Source: a virus. From it: a stretch of 27,081 nt of DNA. Under the pieces are notes generated by a model, which was given only the letters and a program-made list of their open reading frames with translations, searched no databases and was not told the origin of the DNA. Both the position numbers and the translations under genes were made by a program. The stretch is from positions 1 to 27,081 of IMG/VR virus record IMGVR_UViG_3300005253_001213. The stretch is one strand, 5' to 3'. Of this stretch, positions 4,591 through 14,342 are shown one piece after another; positions within the stretch are counted from its first letter, which is position 1, and each line of letters begins with the position of its first letter.

Positions 4591-4829
4591 TGGAATCACT
4601 ACCAGACTTCAGTCCTGTGGTAGGGCATCGCTTCGATTACCGCGTAGACGTGGTGAATCATAACGGCAAGGTAGTGCATGGTGTCACTTGGGAGATTGTA
4701 GGCCAGAATAAAGGACACGTGCCCTATGTTTCCCGCGTGGTACATGGGAAGTGCCAGATGCGAGAGTATGCTGGGCCAATGTTTACCCTCATGGCCAAGC
4801 GCCTACTTGAGGCGTTAGTAGGTATATGA
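4590..4829 (+). CDS. Small unknown protein between helicase and polymerase
   Basis: This encodes 79 residues (MESLPDFSPVVGHRFDYRV at the start) with a mixed beta pattern and a helical end (FTLMAKRLLEALVGI). I recognise no domain. The ATG overlaps the helicase stop by one base (TGATG), and the TGA overlaps the polymerase start (ATGA at 4826), so helicase, this gene and the polymerase are translationally coupled. The position suggests a role as a replisome accessory, but nothing in the sequence proves it. Base composition is less GC-rich than the two flanking genes. Confidence 0.75.
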   Translation: MESLPDFSPVVGHRFDYRVDVVNHNGKVVHGVTWEIVGQNKGHVPYVSRVVHGKCQMREYAGPMFTLMAKRLLEALVGI

Positions 4830-7252
4830 CCCTACGCTTCGACTCAGCCTGTACGCGGTGCCTCCTCTCTGAGTGCCCGCGCTCGGCTGGGATGCACGTC
4901 TGCGTCCCCGGCATGGGCCCTGTCCCGTCCGGCATCCTAGCCTACGGTGAGGCACCAGGAGCCAAGGAGGAGCAGGAGGGGCGCCCCTTCCAAGGGAACG
5001 CTGGCGGACTGCTGGACGAGGTGCTAGGCATGGCGGGGCTAACGCGCGACGACCTCTACATCGGCAGCGTGCTACGTTGCCGACCGCCGGGGAACCGCAA
5101 CCCCAGCACTGACGAGCTGGAGGCCTGTCGGCTCTACACATCGCGGGAGCTGGAGGCTGTCCAGCCGAAGGTGATCGTCACGCTCGGCGGTGTACCGCTG
5201 AAGGCGCTTACCGGCAAGACGGCCATCGGTGAGAACCGAGGCAAGCTACTCCCGCTGCTGCCAGCCTACCGCTCCAGCGTCCGCGTCATACCGTCCTACC
5301 ACCCGGCGTCGATCCTGCACCAGCCGTCGATCCGCGCTGTGCGGATGCAGCAGATCGCAGACGACCTGAAGCTAGCCAAGAAGTTCACCGACGGTGGAGT
5401 ATGGGACGCGACGATAGTGACCAACCCCGCGAAGGTACCGCGAGCTCTGGACCTGCTCAGCCGCTGTGACAGCCTAGCGTGCGACCTGGAGTGGGAGGTA
5501 TTCCCGGGACGGAAGATGGCCTGGCCCTGGTCTCGGCTGGACGGGCGCACTCCGCGGCTGGTAAGCTTCGGCCTCGCGGGGCGTGTGGATGGACGCCTCC
5601 TATCCTGCTCGTTTGATGCTGAGGACCTTTCGCTAGTTAATCCCGTCCGAGAGCTGCTGCTGCGGATACCGTCCATCTACCACAACGCCGTCGCCGACGT
5701 GATCTGGCTACTCTCTCGCGGCATCCACCCGACCATCGCTGGTGACACCTGGATTCTCGCGTTCCTCCTGAACATCCAGTCGTCGCTGAGCCTCAAGGCG
5801 CTCGCGCCGACGCTGACCTCGGTCCCCGCAGGCTGGGGCGACGAGATGGGCGACCTGCTCGGCGCAGTGCCTGCGACACCAGAGGAGTGGCAGCAGACCA
5901 AGGAGTACAACGCCAAGGACGCGGTGGCTACGTTCCTGCTTGACGAGGAGCTCGCGACACGCTCGGAGGGGAAGCCCTTCATGCCGCTGTACCGCGAGGT
6001 TCTGCTGCCGGCCGCTCTGCGGCTGTCGGAGGCCAGCCTCGCCGGCGTCCCGTTTGATGTCGAGCGCCTGCACGAGTTGGCGGCGGCGGCACAGGTGCGG
6101 ATCAAGACGCTAACCACCCGGATTCGTGACACGGTCGGTAGTTCCCGACCAATGGACGCCGCCTACGCCGTCGAGCGCGTCGCTGGGATTACGCTACCCC
6201 GGACGGAGAAGACGGAGCGGCCCTCGATCTCCGCAGAAGCGCTGCTCCCGTACCGCAACCGACACCCGCTGGTGAAGGATATGCTGACGGTCAGCAAACT
6301 CCAGAAGATGGACGGTACGTACCTGCGTCCGTGGGGCAGTCTCCTCGATGAGCAGGGCGACCAGCGGCTCCACAGCATCTATCGCCTAGCAGGCCCCCGT
6401 ACCGGACGGACGGCGGCTGAGCAGGAACGGGGCGGGACAGCCCAGCAGTATCCGCGCTGGCAGCCGTTGCGACAGTGCCTCCAGGCGCCGCCGGGCTGGA
6501 AGATCATCTCCGCCGACCAGTCGCAGATCGAGTTGCGGGTCGGCGCGTGGGTGGTGCAGGAGCGCCAGATGCTGGCCTTCTTCCAAGAGGAGCGCGATAT
6601 CCACACCTGCACGGCCTCCTGGATCAAGGCGCTAACTGCCGGCTGCTCGCTAGCTGAGTGGAAGCGCGATATGGACGCGTGGATGGTCAAGGTCGGGAAG
6701 GCGGATAGGCAGTCGGCCAAGCCGGCCAACTTCGGCTTCCTGTTTGGGCTACAGGTGCCGGGCTTCATCAAGCAGGCGCTGAAGGAGTACGGAGTCATCT
6801 TCACGGTCGATACGGCCACTGCGGCGCGCACAGGGTTCTTCGAGATGTATCCCGACATCGAGCCCTGGCACGAGCACGCGTGGGAGTGGGTACATCAGGG
6901 CTACGTTGACACCAGCACGGGGCGGCGTCGGATGCTTGGGGGTGAGGACAAGAACGCACTGCATCGGAAGGCGATCAACACACCGATTCAGGGACCGTCA
7001 TCGGACCTGTCACTGGCCGGCGGCGTCAAGGCCTGTCAGCGGCTGGAGGACGAGGGACTGCTCGGGCGCTCCGTCTTCTACCTCGGCTTCGTCCACGACG
7101 ACAACCTCTTTATGGCAGAGGACAAGATCGTGTCGGGAGCGTCCGAGATCATCGAGTACGAGATGGAGCACCCCGGCCTTGAGCAGATTGGCATGGGCGA
7201 CTTTGACGTGCCGCTGAAGGTCGAGGCGAAGGTGTCGCAGACGTGGAGTTGA
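4826..7252 (+). CDS. Uracil-DNA glycosylase / family A DNA polymerase fusion
   Basis: This encodes 808 residues with three modules. Residues 1-185 match family 4/5 uracil-DNA glycosylases: GEAPG at 41, GRPFQGNAGGLLD, CRPPGNRNP, SYHPASIL near 157-164, and four cysteines at 9, 12, 85 and 101 with the spacing of the 4Fe-4S cluster. Residues 195-400 are a 3'-5' proofreading exonuclease: CDLEW (D220, E222), HNAVADVIW (N287, D291) and YNAKD (Y361, D365). Residues 400-808 are the polymerase: motif A SADQSQIELR (D564), motif B RQSAKPANFGFLFG (R628, K632), motif C FVHDDN (H757, D758, D759; the usual HDE reads HDD). The fused glycosylase could scan or remove uracil ahead of synthesis. ATGA overlap couples it to the gene before. 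Its processivity factor is probably the clamp at 1382. Motifs for all three activities look intact. Confidence 0.93.
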   Translation: MTLRFDSACTRCLLSECPRSAGMHVCVPGMGPVPSGILAYGEAPGAKEEQEGRPFQGNAGGLLDEVLGMAGLTRDDLYIGSVLRCRPPGNRNPSTDELEACRLYTSRELEAVQPKVIVTLGGVPLKALTGKTAIGENRGKLLPLLPAYRSSVRVIPSYHPASILHQPSIRAVRMQQIADDLKLAKKFTDGGVWDATIVTNPAKVPRALDLLSRCDSLACDLEWEVFPGRKMAWPWSRLDGRTPRLVSFGLAGRVDGRLLSCSFDAEDLSLVNPVRELLLRIPSIYHNAVADVIWLLSRGIHPTIAGDTWILAFLLNIQSSLSLKALAPTLTSVPAGWGDEMGDLLGAVPATPEEWQQTKEYNAKDAVATFLLDEELATRSEGKPFMPLYREVLLPAALRLSEASLAGVPFDVERLHELAAAAQVRIKTLTTRIRDTVGSSRPMDAAYAVERVAGITLPRTEKTERPSISAEALLPYRNRHPLVKDMLTVSKLQKMDGTYLRPWGSLLDEQGDQRLHSIYRLAGPRTGRTAAEQERGGTAQQYPRWQPLRQCLQAPPGWKIISADQSQIELRVGAWVVQERQMLAFFQEERDIHTCTASWIKALTAGCSLAEWKRDMDAWMVKVGKADRQSAKPANFGFLFGLQVPGFIKQALKEYGVIFTVDTATAARTGFFEMYPDIEPWHEHAWEWVHQGYVDTSTGRRRMLGGEDKNALHRKAINTPIQGPSSDLSLAGGVKACQRLEDEGLLGRSVFYLGFVHDDNLFMAEDKIVSGASEIIEYEMEHPGLEQIGMGDFDVPLKVEAKVSQTWS

Positions 7253-8358: not shown

Positions 8359-9166
8359 CGCATCGAAAAGTATTGCCGACCGGATCGCCAAGCCGTCGGC
8401 GAAGACAACCTACGTGGCAGCGACCATCTTCGGCAAGGGAGGAGTCGGCAAGACCTCTCTCCTAGCCACTATGCCAGGGAAGGGACTGGTCATCGACATC
8501 CCGCAGGTCGAAGGAGGCACGAACGTACTCTCTGACGCCGACAACATCCGCGTCTTCCCCGGCGACGGGGCACCTGTAACGTGGGACGAACTGGACAAGG
8601 TCTACAAGTACCTCCAGGAGGGCACGCACGACTTCAAGTGGTACGCCATTGACACCATCACGGCTACTGGAGAGTTGGCGAAGCGGAAGACGCTCGGCGA
8701 ACGCGACCTGTCGGCAGACCCGCGTATCGTTACGATGCAGGACTGGGGCAAGATCGGCGAGCTGCAGAAGGACCTGTTCTACCGCTTCCGGTCGCTGCCG
8801 ATGCACGGCATCTTCCTCGCGCAGGAGAAGCTGCGCGGAGGCGGTGAGGACGGAGCACTTGAGTACCAGCCTGACATCTCGCCGTCGGCGCTAGGTGGGC
8901 TGGTACCCTCCATGTTCCTGATCGGGCGCATGTTTACACGGGAGATCGAGAATCCGAAGACGAAAGAGCTAGTGACAGAGAGGAGGCTGCGAGTCGGCAC
9001 ACACGCGCTGTCGGTTGCCAAGGTTCGAGCACTACCCACCCGACAGCTTCCCCCAGTGCTCAAGAATCCGCACTTAGGTCGGACCTTCGCCTGGCTACTC
9101 GGGAGCCCTAAAGCGACGTGTCCCGAGGCAGCAAGCGCAGACCCAGACCTGTTCGCTGGCGGCTAG
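8339..9166 (+). CDS. Sak4-like RecA-fold ATPase (AAA_24)
   Basis: This encodes 275 residues. Walker A is GKGGVGKTS (residues 32-40), and Walker B lies in FKWYAIDTIT (D105). The stretch SPSALGGLVPSMFLIGRMF and the overall size match the AAA_24/Sak4 family of phage single-strand annealing and recombination ATPases, which are RecA-like cores without the filament N-terminal domain. It probably acts with the nuclease before it and the DUF669 protein after it in homologous recombination and replication restart. The ATG at 8339 lies inside the end of the nuclease gene, with AAGGGAG upstream. The last 25 residues are low-complexity and acidic (ADPDLFAGG), like the tail of the following DUF669 protein, and may bind a partner. 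Confidence 0.88.
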   Translation: MATAPTSASKSIADRIAKPSAKTTYVAATIFGKGGVGKTSLLATMPGKGLVIDIPQVEGGTNVLSDADNIRVFPGDGAPVTWDELDKVYKYLQEGTHDFKWYAIDTITATGELAKRKTLGERDLSADPRIVTMQDWGKIGELQKDLFYRFRSLPMHGIFLAQEKLRGGGEDGALEYQPDISPSALGGLVPSMFLIGRMFTREIENPKTKELVTERRLRVGTHALSVAKVRALPTRQLPPVLKNPHLGRTFAWLLGSPKATCPEAASADPDLFAGG

Positions 9167-11022: not shown

Positions 11023-13878
11023 ATGAACAAGACCAAGACCGCCGCGCTACAATTCGCCGACGCGGGTCTGCCCGTACTGGCACTCCACTTACCGGACGGG
11101 ACGGACGGTTGCACGTGCTCAACTCCCGACTGCGAACATCCAGGTAAGCACCCTCGTGCTGATCTCTGTCGGCACGGAGTCCTTGACGCGACGACCAACG
11201 CGGACGTAATCTCCGCCTGGCCAGACGATATCAACATTGGTGTGGCGCTCGGTGAAGCCGCTGGCGGCGTCATGGTCTTCGATGTGGACCACCTGCAGAT
11301 CGCGGCGCAGTTCCTTGACCCCGAGTTCGGCCTGCCAGACCAGACCGCTGTCGCGTCCAGCGGGCGCCTCGGCGCACACATCTGGTTCCGCACGACGGGT
11401 CCGACGAAGACGTTCCACCTCCGCGCCTCGACGGGCGAGAAGATCGGCGAGGTGCGGGGTGACGGCGCCTATATTGTCGTCCCGCCGTCGCTGGCAGTGA
11501 CCGGCAGGCGCTACCAGTGGGTCGGACAGCCCGCTAGGGTGGACGTGGTGCGCTTTCACAGCACAGACGACCCCCGACGCTACATTGAGGGACTCCTAGC
11601 CGACGTGGGCGTTACTGTGGGCACTGGTGGCGTCGGCGGGACTGCCGCGACGCCGGACAAGTATCGTCAGATGCCTCTCGCTGCGATTGACATTCCGGAG
11701 CGTATCCGGACGCACTCCCTCATGCAACGCCTACGGCAGCAGCTAGCAGGCCACCACGCGAAGCCCGCCGGCAAGTCCGACCCCGACCGTTCCAAGCGGC
11801 TGATGGGTGTGGGCTTCGCCGCACGCGACGCGGCAAAGGAGATGCACCAGTCTCTAACGCTGGAGGAGTGTGCAGGCATCGTCAAGATGGCTGTCATCGG
11901 CTGGTACGGCAAGTACGACGAGGGCCGCACCGATATGGACTTCCAATGCTGGAGCATTGCCTGGAAGGCGTTCGACGAGATCGACGTCACCGAGACCGGC
12001 ATCCCGACGGCAGCCGCCGGCAAGCCAAAGTACAGCGCCGATAACTACTTCTGGGACGAGGCGGATGGCAAGGTCTACAAGCGGGTTCTCCGCAAGGACG
12101 GATCCGAAGACGGCCTGGAGATCTGCAACTTCCTCCCCGAGATCATTGAGGACATTGAGCTTGACGCCGGCAGTGACACCGACGACGGCGAACGCGTCTG
12201 GCGCGTACGCTTCACCCGCCCGGGCAGTGACGTCCACGAGCTGGTGCTGCGCGTTGACGACCGCACACGCAAGAAGGGGCGGCTGGAGGCGGCGCTGGCT
12301 GGTAGTCTCCTACCGAGCGACTTCATTGTCTGCGCACGGCATGCGCCCGAGGTGCGAGAGGCGATGCAGGCGTTGAGCAATCCCGAACGGCGGAAGGCGT
12401 TCGCGGTCACCGGCTGGATGGACGACCACACCGTCTACGTACTCCCGGGCGCCGACGGAGGTATCTCGGCTCAGGGCGTGGACGAGCTGCGGCGGATCGA
12501 TCCTGATCGGCTCCCCACAGGCGCTATCGTGATTCGGTCCGAGCTCATGCTCTACGGGCAGGGTGTGCGGCCGCCGGCGACGCCAGAGGAGCTGACAGCG
12601 TCGTGGGAGGCGTTCCGCACACTGATCAGCGTAGCGCCACCCCGCGTGTCCGTCCCCATCGTCCTCCAGGTCCTGGCCGGCCCGCTGGCGTCCAGCGGCA
12701 TTGGAGCCGTTCCGCCGCTAGTACACGTCATGGGGAAGACTGGCATTCTCAAGACGAGCTTCTGCCTCGCGGCGCTCTCGCTCTTCGGGAAGTTCAAGAA
12801 CAACGCACCCACACCGTGGACCTCAACGACGACGTTCCTCACCTCATTCCTCCACACTGCTAAGGACCTGACGGTGCTGGTAGACGACTACAAGCGCAGC
12901 GTCGTCAAGCCAACCGAGTTTACCGCCTTCATTCAGAACTATGCCGACCGCACCGGCCGCGGTCGCGGCAACCCCGACGGCACGGCCCGCGTCACACAGA
13001 TCGCGCGTGGGCTGATGCTGAGCACCGGAGAGGACAAGTGGGAGGGTGAGGCGTCCGTAGAGGCGCGTACCATTATCGTACCGCTACAGGGCGGTGACAT
13101 TGATCTTGAGCGGCTGAGCGCCACCCAGGCGCTGGTACAGCGGCAGGAGCTACAGCTCTTCGGCGGCGCATACCTGCTCTGGCTGGCGAAGCATGGCAAG
13201 CTGCTAGGAGAGAATGCGCTGGACGATACCTGTGAGCGGTGGCGCCTAAAGTTGGTAAAGGCCACCGGCCAGGGCGACGGCATACACCTACGCATTCTCA
13301 GCTCCTACGCGTCCCTATTAGCTGCCGGCGAGGTCGTCGTCAAATTCGTCCGCGCCACCTACGGCAAGGAGGCCGGGAAGGAAGTCATGGACTGGATCAC
13401 GGAGGCCACGAAGACGTTGGTGGCCGGGGCTGAGGAGCAGGCCAAAGATATCGCCAGTTCGTCGCCGTTTCGGAAGATGGCGACGGCGCTAGCCGAGGGC
13501 ATGGCGGCGCGGAAGATATGCCTCATGCCAGCGGTAGGCGTTGACACGTCGCACCACAGGCACCCGTCCGGCGCGGTTGCGGCTGAGACAGTGGGGTACT
13601 GGGAAGAACGGCACGGTGTCGTGTTCGCGCTGCTCACCCGAGAGAGCACATACGGCTGGTATGAAGGTGTCCAAGTCCGGCGCGGTAGCCGTGTCGGCTT
13701 CTCATGGGCGGCGGTGCTGAAGGAGGCGGTGGACGAATTTGGTGGAGAACGTGTCGAACGCAAGCGGGTGCAGGTGGGAGAGAAGACCGCACAACTCAGC
13801 GGCGTCCTTGTCCCGTTGGACACCCTAACTCAAGAAAACGACTCACAAGACTCACAAGACTCACAGGATTTCGAGTAG
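11023..13878 (+). CDS. Primase-polymerase / helicase fusion
   Basis: This encodes 951 residues. The N-terminal 165 residues are a bifunctional primase-polymerase (prim-pol) domain: a Cys-rich insert (C30, C32, C37; CTCSTPDCEHPGKHP), the catalytic VFDVD (D87, D89), SSGRLGAHIWF (H119) and GEVRGDGAYIVVPPS. The centre (about 340-540) resembles the region that precedes DUF927-type helicases. The ATPase core has Walker A MGKTGILKTSF (571-578) and Walker B TVLVDDYK (D621, D622). The protein should unwind the fork and synthesise primers. The C-terminus ends DSQDSQDSQDFE, coded by three exact-register 9-bp repeats that are the first part of the repeat region downstream, so the DNA element probably shapes the protein tail. 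The ATG at 11023 has only a weak ribosome-binding site in TGGATATATATG; a later start would cut into the prim-pol helix. Confidence 0.9.
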   Translation: MNKTKTAALQFADAGLPVLALHLPDGTDGCTCSTPDCEHPGKHPRADLCRHGVLDATTNADVISAWPDDINIGVALGEAAGGVMVFDVDHLQIAAQFLDPEFGLPDQTAVASSGRLGAHIWFRTTGPTKTFHLRASTGEKIGEVRGDGAYIVVPPSLAVTGRRYQWVGQPARVDVVRFHSTDDPRRYIEGLLADVGVTVGTGGVGGTAATPDKYRQMPLAAIDIPERIRTHSLMQRLRQQLAGHHAKPAGKSDPDRSKRLMGVGFAARDAAKEMHQSLTLEECAGIVKMAVIGWYGKYDEGRTDMDFQCWSIAWKAFDEIDVTETGIPTAAAGKPKYSADNYFWDEADGKVYKRVLRKDGSEDGLEICNFLPEIIEDIELDAGSDTDDGERVWRVRFTRPGSDVHELVLRVDDRTRKKGRLEAALAGSLLPSDFIVCARHAPEVREAMQALSNPERRKAFAVTGWMDDHTVYVLPGADGGISAQGVDELRRIDPDRLPTGAIVIRSELMLYGQGVRPPATPEELTASWEAFRTLISVAPPRVSVPIVLQVLAGPLASSGIGAVPPLVHVMGKTGILKTSFCLAALSLFGKFKNNAPTPWTSTTTFLTSFLHTAKDLTVLVDDYKRSVVKPTEFTAFIQNYADRTGRGRGNPDGTARVTQIARGLMLSTGEDKWEGEASVEARTIIVPLQGGDIDLERLSATQALVQRQELQLFGGAYLLWLAKHGKLLGENALDDTCERWRLKLVKATGQGDGIHLRILSSYASLLAAGEVVVKFVRATYGKEAGKEVMDWITEATKTLVAGAEEQAKDIASSSPFRKMATALAEGMAARKICLMPAVGVDTSHHRHPSGAVAAETVGYWEERHGVVFALLTRESTYGWYEGVQVRRGSRVGFSWAAVLKEAVDEFGGERVERKRVQVGEKTAQLSGVLVPLDTLTQENDSQDSQDSQDFE

Positions 13879-13917
13879 AATCGTATCTAGTGTGAGTAGT
13901 GTGAGTGTTGTGAGTAT
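13840..13917. repeat. Repeat module 1: ACTCACA x3, TCGTATCT, TGTGAGT x3
   Basis: Three ACTCACA heptamers start at 13841, 13850 and 13859 (9-bp period), inside the end of the primase-helicase gene. After the stop and TCGTATCT (13881-13888) come three TGTGAGT heptamers, the reverse complement, at 13891, 13900 and 13909, again at 9-bp period. The two triplets can pair as an imperfect stem of about 25 bp. The same order recurs in module 2 at 14037-14105. Confidence 0.85.
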
Positions 13918-13959
13918 GAAAAAAAGTATATATATATAGGAGAAGAATGAGGGTGTATA

Positions 13960-14007
13960 GATCAGAAAAGGGGGATCAATTGATCAACAGATCAGCAGAT
14001 CAGGATC
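13960..14007. repeat. GATC array with 8-bp period
   Basis: Six GATC sites lie within 48 bp at 13960, 13974, 13982, 13990, 13998 and 14004. Four of them are spaced exactly 8 bp apart. The first pair in the periodic series forms the 12-bp palindrome GATCAATTGATC (13974-13985). Such clusters occur in origins controlled by adenine methylation; whether either beta-class methyltransferase of this phage targets GATC is unknown. Confidence 0.8.
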
Positions 14008-14036
14008 TCTATACATACGTCTGTCCCCCAAAACAC

Positions 14037-14105
14037 CCTCACAATACTCACAACACTCACATTCGTATCTGAAAACGTGTGAGATAGGGTGTGAGGGTAG
14101 TGAGA
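14037..14105. repeat. Repeat module 2: C/ACTCACA x3, TCGTATCT, degenerate TGTGAG
   Basis: CCTCACA at 14037 and ACTCACA at 14046 and 14055 keep the 9-bp period. TCGTATCT follows at 14063-14070, then TGTGAGA at 14078, TGTGAGG at 14090 and AGTGAGA at 14099. It repeats the order and orientation of module 1 about 200 bp away, with the right triplet decayed. It ends 36 nt before the start of the HTH gene. Confidence 0.8.
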
Positions 14106-14141: not shown

Positions 14142-14342
14142 ATGAACAAGCGACAGAAGACCTGGACCCCGACGAAGATCAAGCGCCTACGCAAGCGGCG
14201 GCTCGCGTCGCAGACGGCCTTCGGCATGCAGCTCGGTGTGTCGATCATGACCGTCTCGCGCTGGGAGCGGGGCACCACGAAGCCGGCGCCTCGCCAGATC
14301 GAAGCGCTGGACAAGCTAGCGGGAGACACGGTCAGTGCCTGA
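14142..14342 (+). CDS. Small XRE-type helix-turn-helix protein
   Basis: This encodes 66 residues. A Cro/C1-type HTH covers residues 9-62: WTPTKIKRLRKRRLASQTAF, then GMQLGVSIMTVSRWERGTTK, where TVSRWERG is the recognition-helix signature. The first ten residues are basic (MNKRQKTW). The start is the ATG at 14142 with AAAAGGAGG 9-16 nt upstream; a GTG at 14091 falls inside repeat module 2 and is rejected. The protein directly follows the repeat region, so it is the best candidate to bind the heptamers or the ATGATTAACAC promoter element. It overlaps the next gene by 8 nt. Confidence 0.85.
   Translation: MNKRQKTWTPTKIKRLRKRRLASQTAFGMQLGVSIMTVSRWERGTTKPAPRQIEALDKLAGDTVSA

Follow-up and report, generated by a model that had tools for sequence, protein, structure and literature searches.

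What does an array of short opposed repeats do when it begins inside the last codons of a primase-helicase gene? Such an array lies in a viral stretch of 27,081 nucleotides (IMG/VR record IMGVR_UViG_3300005253_001213; hereafter the window, meaning this whole stretch). An earlier note, made from the letters alone, had proposed a replication origin there, with an operator or a partition site as alternatives. In this study, we compared the element with related contigs, with other primase loci and with known origins. Our analysis of sequences and of a predicted structure indicates that the element is very probably the replication origin of this phage, and that the abutting primase-helicase gene encodes its own initiator.

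The array behind the primase-helicase gene

The array comprises 12 TGTGAG/CTCACA sites at 13841-14104 (11 exact, one with one mismatch) in two opposed modules. Each module consists of three CTCACA facing three TGTGAG, and the last site is degenerate (Table 1). Neighbouring sites are 9 bp apart throughout, save for one 12-bp step in the fourth triplet. The primase ORF ends ...DSQDSQDSQDFE inside the first triplet; hence, the array both follows the gene and forms its last codons, as the earlier note had said. The coordinates it gave for the heptamers, for both TCGTATCT copies (13881 and 14063), for the A7 and (TA)6 tracts and for the six GATC sites were also correct, and so was the exact 9-bp spacing of the first three triplets. 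Mirror symmetry, which it had claimed as well, is imperfect in module 2. Between the modules lies a spacer of 121 bp with a GC content of 37%, against 62% for the window. This spacer carries A7 at 13919-13925, (TA)6 at 13927-13938, and GATC at 13960, 13974, 13982, 13990, 13998 and 14004. GATC occurs 140 times across the whole window (1-27081), whereas base composition would predict about 92 occurrences.

Table 1. Coordinates of the primase-helicase gene and of the array elements in the window.
Feature	Position	Strand	Remarks
Primase-helicase gene	11023..13878	+	N-terminal Prim-Pol; C-terminal DUF927 / SaPIbov1 Rep-type self-loading AAA+ helicase
Codons of C-terminal winged-helix-like domain (aa 855-931)	13585..13815	+	AF2 model; putative iteron-binding domain
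Module 1, left set	13841..13865	-	ACTCACA x3 at 9 bp (minus strand TGTGAGT); CTCACA cores at 13842, 13851, 13860; gene reads DSQDSQDSQ
TCGTATCT, first copy	13881..13888	+	TCGTAGCT in L004
Module 1, right set	13891..13915	+	TGTGAGT x3 at 9 bp; TGTGAG at 13891, 13900, 13909; register kept in L004
AT-rich spacer	13916..14036	.	A7 and (TA)6; putative melting site
Module 2, left set	14037..14061	-	CCTCACA, ACTCACA, ACTCACA at 9 bp; CTCACA cores at 14038, 14047, 14056; degenerate but in register in L004
TCGTATCT, second copy	14063..14070	+	Conserved in L004
Module 2, right set	14078..14104	+	TGTGAG at 14078 and 14090, AGTGAG at 14099 (one mismatch); spacing 12 then 9

The pattern of 9-bp-phased triplets, with up to three mismatches allowed, occurred in none of 100 shuffles of the window. 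Moreover, the mirrored-phased score of the array is 6, whereas 4,999 of 5,000 dinucleotide shuffles scored 0 and the remaining one scored 2. In sliding windows across the 27 kb, this score was non-zero only where they touched the array, and no similar site was found elsewhere. The cumulative GC skew of the window showed no turn at the array and was uninformative.

The sole close relative that we found is a viral contig of 72.9 kb (L004), whose primase is 91% identical. The earlier note had reasoned that an origin should be kept beside the same primase in related phages, and in this one relative the array is indeed present. It retains one TCGTATCT, the TA tract and an AT-rich spacer (38% GC), all four iteron sets have kept their register, and the right set of module 2 reads TGTGAG, TGTGAG, TGTGAT with unchanged spacing. 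No second iteron cluster was found across the 72.9 kb. Several L004 iterons are degenerate, which counts against the origin reading. In addition, the GATC array is gone, with one site in the L004 spacer against six in the window. Thus, of the AT tract and GATC array named in the earlier note, only the former is a conserved trait.

The L004 contig also bears on the view that the array is an operator, bound by a small HTH protein that would repress a promoter within the element. The HTH_31/HTH_3 gene of the window (14142-14342) starts about 40 bp after the array, and operators too can show repeated opposed sites. In L004, however, the array stays by the primase, while the homologous HTH gene (8862-9062) lies 1.8 kb past it, beyond a group of genes that includes a ParB-like/methyltransferase gene. 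Hence, the array travels with the primase and not with the HTH gene. In addition, part of the array lies within coding sequence, and comparable arrays behind primases of other families are followed by different genes. These data weaken the operator alternative of the earlier note, and we consider it very unlikely.

Its other alternative, a centromere-like partition site, draws on the fact that parS/parC sites also carry iteron arrays. Nevertheless, the genes linked to the array are primases and not partition genes, and no ParA- or ParM-like protein was found among the window proteins scanned, which represent part of the ORFs. The ParB-like gene beside the L004 array looks, by eye, like a fusion of a ParB fold and a methyltransferase. 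A partition role is therefore extremely improbable.

A further possibility is that structure, and not sequence, is recognised, as in a cruciform or hairpin origin similar to the stem-loop located 3' of orf904 in pRN1. That stem-loop, which lies behind a prim-pol/helicase gene, is essential (PMC4234260), and module 1 of our array forms a strong hairpin (folding z -6.5; -4.3 in L004). On the other hand, the hairpin of module 2 is weak (z -2.9; -2.4 in L004), and hairpins are to be expected from any mirrored iteron set. The iteron changes in L004 are not compensated at all pairs, yet the 9-bp register is kept. Moreover, phased arrays of other families have long spacers that make compact stems impossible. 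As module 1 folds strongly and module 2 only weakly, the cruciform is the lesser reading and, in our estimation, a highly improbable one. At the level of sequence, the linkage between array and primase, together with the phased arrays behind other primase genes described below, supports a replication origin.

The primase-helicase as putative initiator

The primase-helicase matches the Pfam families PF09250 (E 3.9e-22) and PF06048 (E 7.3e-8). When a four-sequence profile of its second half was compared with all PDB sequences, it retrieved 8tch, the Rep protein of SaPIbov1 (E 4.4e-6), and 5dgk, the Cch protein of SCCmec (E 0.0022). A single-sequence structure prediction gave a pLDDT of 35, and an alignment of 11 homologues was used instead. 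The resulting AF2 model of residues 481-951 reached a mean pLDDT of 71.5 and a pTM of 0.65. Foldseek placed 5dgk (E 4.6e-7) and 8tch (E 2.1e-5) at the top with this model. In agreement with this, VIA-align gave a Z of 19.0 for 5dgk over model residues 3-454 and of 16.4 for 8tch over residues 2-460. MCM helicases came next (Z at most 10.6) and aligned over the helicase part alone. The alignments with Cch and SaPIbov1 Rep run through the C-terminal winged helix, whereas the MCM matches do not. In the model, the 80 residues that precede the tail encoded by the iterons adopt a winged-helix-like arrangement (beta-beta-helix-helix-beta-beta). Judged by profile and predicted fold, the helicase half is homologous to the SaPI/SCCmec initiator helicases over nearly its whole length.

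The neighbouring genes form a replication module with a beta clamp, a UDG-PolA protein, Sak4 and an SSB-like protein. In the ORF at 4826-7252, a uracil-DNA glycosylase domain (PF03167) is fused to a DNA polymerase of family A (PF00476). Altogether, initiator homology, position and comparative evidence lend good support to the earlier proposal of an iteron origin served by an initiator.

These features suggest how the origin may work. The C-terminal winged helix would bind the TGTGAGT iterons, and the protein would form rings on both six-site modules, perhaps a single hexamer on each. Two hexamers have been proposed for SaPI Rep (PMC7581432), and one ring per six-site module is consistent with that proposal. 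The 121-bp AT-rich spacer would then melt and the helicases load. Subsequently, the Prim-Pol domain may make primers, which would be extended by the phage-coded polymerase A with the sliding clamp and the SSB-like protein. The earlier note had assumed in-phase binding on one DNA face. However, 9 bp fall short of a full helical turn; each site is turned by about 50 degrees relative to the next, and the sites are therefore not aligned exactly on a single face. We infer that strict binding to one face accommodates this rotation less well than does a spiral arrangement of subunits.

Arrays beside other primase genes

A motif-led scan of viral contigs with CTCACAnnnCTCACAnnnCTCACA, which selects for the TGTGAG core, yielded 44 loci. 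In 16 of them, a primase/helicase gene ended at or close to the array, against 1-2 of 41 for the reversed control pattern. These 16 loci comprise the families DUF7146+Toprim, Toprim+DUF5906, D5_N+Pox_D5, Toprim+AAA_25, Prim-Pol+AAA_25, Prim-Pol and VapE, and family counts take in near-identical loci. Opposed double arrays also stand behind DUF7146-type genes in alphaproteobacterial genomes. A protein-led set was collected from the DUF7146 primase alignment alone (80 loci, 64 distinct 3' regions) and scanned for periods of 8-12. The best phased hexamer had a period of 9 in nearly all 64 regions, which usually held 3-6 phased pairs, whereas upstream windows of the same genes held at most one. 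Across background windows, mirrored phased pairs appeared in 29 of 1,685, with true origins still among them. When 7-mers were counted leniently, with one mismatch allowed and both strands included, origins could not be told apart from control windows, but the phased-pair score did distinguish them.

Iterons in the DUF7146 family vary by clade (TGTGAGCCT, TGTGAACCT, GGGGAACCT, TGGGGACCT and GTGAATGTT). Clade-specific iterons at a shared period indicate that geometry is retained while sequence drifts in concert. A universal TGTGAG core was ruled out, given that families collected without bias use other sequences, with GGGGAACCT-type arrays lacking the core; the motif scan had itself selected for TGTGAG. 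A universal TGT anchor was discarded on the same grounds.

Two DUF927 homologues, L203 and L207, carry mirrored arrays of 9-bp period (TGTTAC and TGAACA, respectively) with AT-rich spacers, starting in or near the last codons. Of the 11 distant DUF927 homologues from viral contigs, the other nine lack such an array, as do the two from fecal phages; therefore, a DUF927 helicase alone does not imply one. Prim-pol homologues in plasmids and in the Serratia, Manatee Spring and Thermaerobacter records have no array either. Behind the D5-type primases of the Mycobacterium phages Shadow1, Yuna and Patt (L263, L269 and L096), we found mirrored phased repeats of TGTTCT, TGTGCC and TGTCCC, which are candidate origins with diverged iterons. 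Most other named phages with D5 primases that were sampled showed no mirrored phased array under a strict test. By eye, the Streptococcus thermophilus phage CHPC1148 and the Listeria phage PLM26 show opposed repeats with a different spacing.

Other repeats were noticed in the course of this survey. After a Prim-Pol gene, L027:3055-3474 holds many ACTCACAAA units within longer repeats of about 50 bp. Short intergenic inverted repeats of the form TGTGAGnnnTGTGAG...CTCACAnnnCTCACA occur at L108:1682-1766, L109:2619-2703 and L111:487-572. Two of them lie in one contig, no identified primase adjoins them, and they are perhaps operators or terminators.

Iterons that extend into a gene are also translated. 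The tripeptide tails CEPCEPCEP, SQGSQ, CENCENCEN and DSQDSQDSQ are 9-bp iterons read as codons (L005, L022, L025, L037 and window positions 13841-13878). For this reason, it would be wrong to take them for protein motifs. In the DUF7146+Toprim genes (L115-L193), the last 180 bp or so contain a perfectly alternating purine-pyrimidine tract between opposed iteron sets, for example at about 5747-5776 of L120. Its median length is 28 nt, and 44 of 49 regions have a tract of 15 nt or more, compared with none of 607 control windows. It is coding, and synonymous recoding gives such runs at P 0.001-0.035 in 11 of 13 genes and at about 0.09 in the other two. Could these Z-DNA-prone tracts be a substitute for an AT-rich unwinding element?

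We tentatively put forward, as a reading that is less likely than not, a broad class of phage origins that has so far gone unrecognised. Its 9-bp (three-codon) iterons would run through the coding tail of primase-helicase genes from unrelated families and on into their 3' flank, with conserved geometry and iteron sequences changing in concert, and a Z-DNA-prone, strictly alternating purine-pyrimidine tract would replace the AT-rich element in GC-rich members. The origin plan itself is already known from SaPI/PICI and P4, but novelty is possible for the wider pattern, in which iterons are read as tripeptide tails and one family has Z-DNA-prone tracts.

These observations provide a concrete candidate DNA site for a prim-pol initiator, whereas for pRN1 the motif bound was reported as not identified (PMC4234260). 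Initiator, iteron and predicted melting region can be read from one sequence. They also suggest an easy criterion for locating origins in uncultured phages, namely opposed repeats in 9-bp phase where a primase gene ends. Finally, the odd tails of many phage primases (CEPCEPCEP, SQGSQ, DSQDSQ) would be explained as the translation of DNA sites that the gene runs through.

Comparison with known origins

The earlier note knew of no described origin with this layout, but both PICI/SaPI origins and P4 crr are built in a similar way. A PICI origin directly follows the initiator gene on its 3' side, and its AT-rich region is in every case bordered by two sets of iterons (PMC6092414); the C-terminal domain of SaPI Rep recognises iterons directly downstream of its own gene (PMC7581432). 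Similarly, the phage element stands directly 3' of the gene for a self-loading helicase of the Cch/SaPIbov1 Rep fold with a predicted C-terminal DNA-binding domain, and three TGTGAGT and three CTCACA flank a spacer of low GC content. The array here begins in the last codons. A primase is linked in both cases, although here the Prim-Pol is fused to DUF927. Unlike in SaPI/PICI, the iterons are of the TGTGAGT type, lie partly in coding sequence and form two opposed modules, within a phage genome that has its own polymerase, clamp and recombinase and is not a satellite island. The small island size, integrase and gene order that characterise PICI satellites are not seen in the window, whose 27 kb carry genes for phage replication, for lysis and for methyltransferases. 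The contig of the close relative measures 72.9 kb.

According to the annotated P4 genome (NC_001609), crr follows the alpha gene directly and is built of two direct repeats of 120 bp. It carries opposed type 1 repeats of 8 bp (TGTTCACC), some of them 9 bp apart, in an AT-rich context. The phage element resembles this replicon II in its duplicated module, its opposed iterons and its position directly 3' of a primase-helicase gene. However, the iteron is TGTGAGT here and TGTTCACC in P4, and the P4 alpha initiator combines a Zn ribbon, Toprim and a D5-type SF3 helicase, in contrast to Prim-Pol and DUF927. P4 also has a second origin, ori, besides crr.

The element shares with pRN1 its place directly 3' of a prim-pol/helicase gene. 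In pRN1, the site is a stem-loop of about 100 bp without iterons, served by an SF3 helicase; its binding motif was reported as not identified and specific protein binding was not found (PMC4234260). By contrast, iterons are present here and only module 1 folds strongly. Taken together, these comparisons suggest that the window element works like an origin of the SaPI/P4 type with an initiator of the SaPIbov1 Rep type. It is, however, neither part of a PICI nor a P4 crr.
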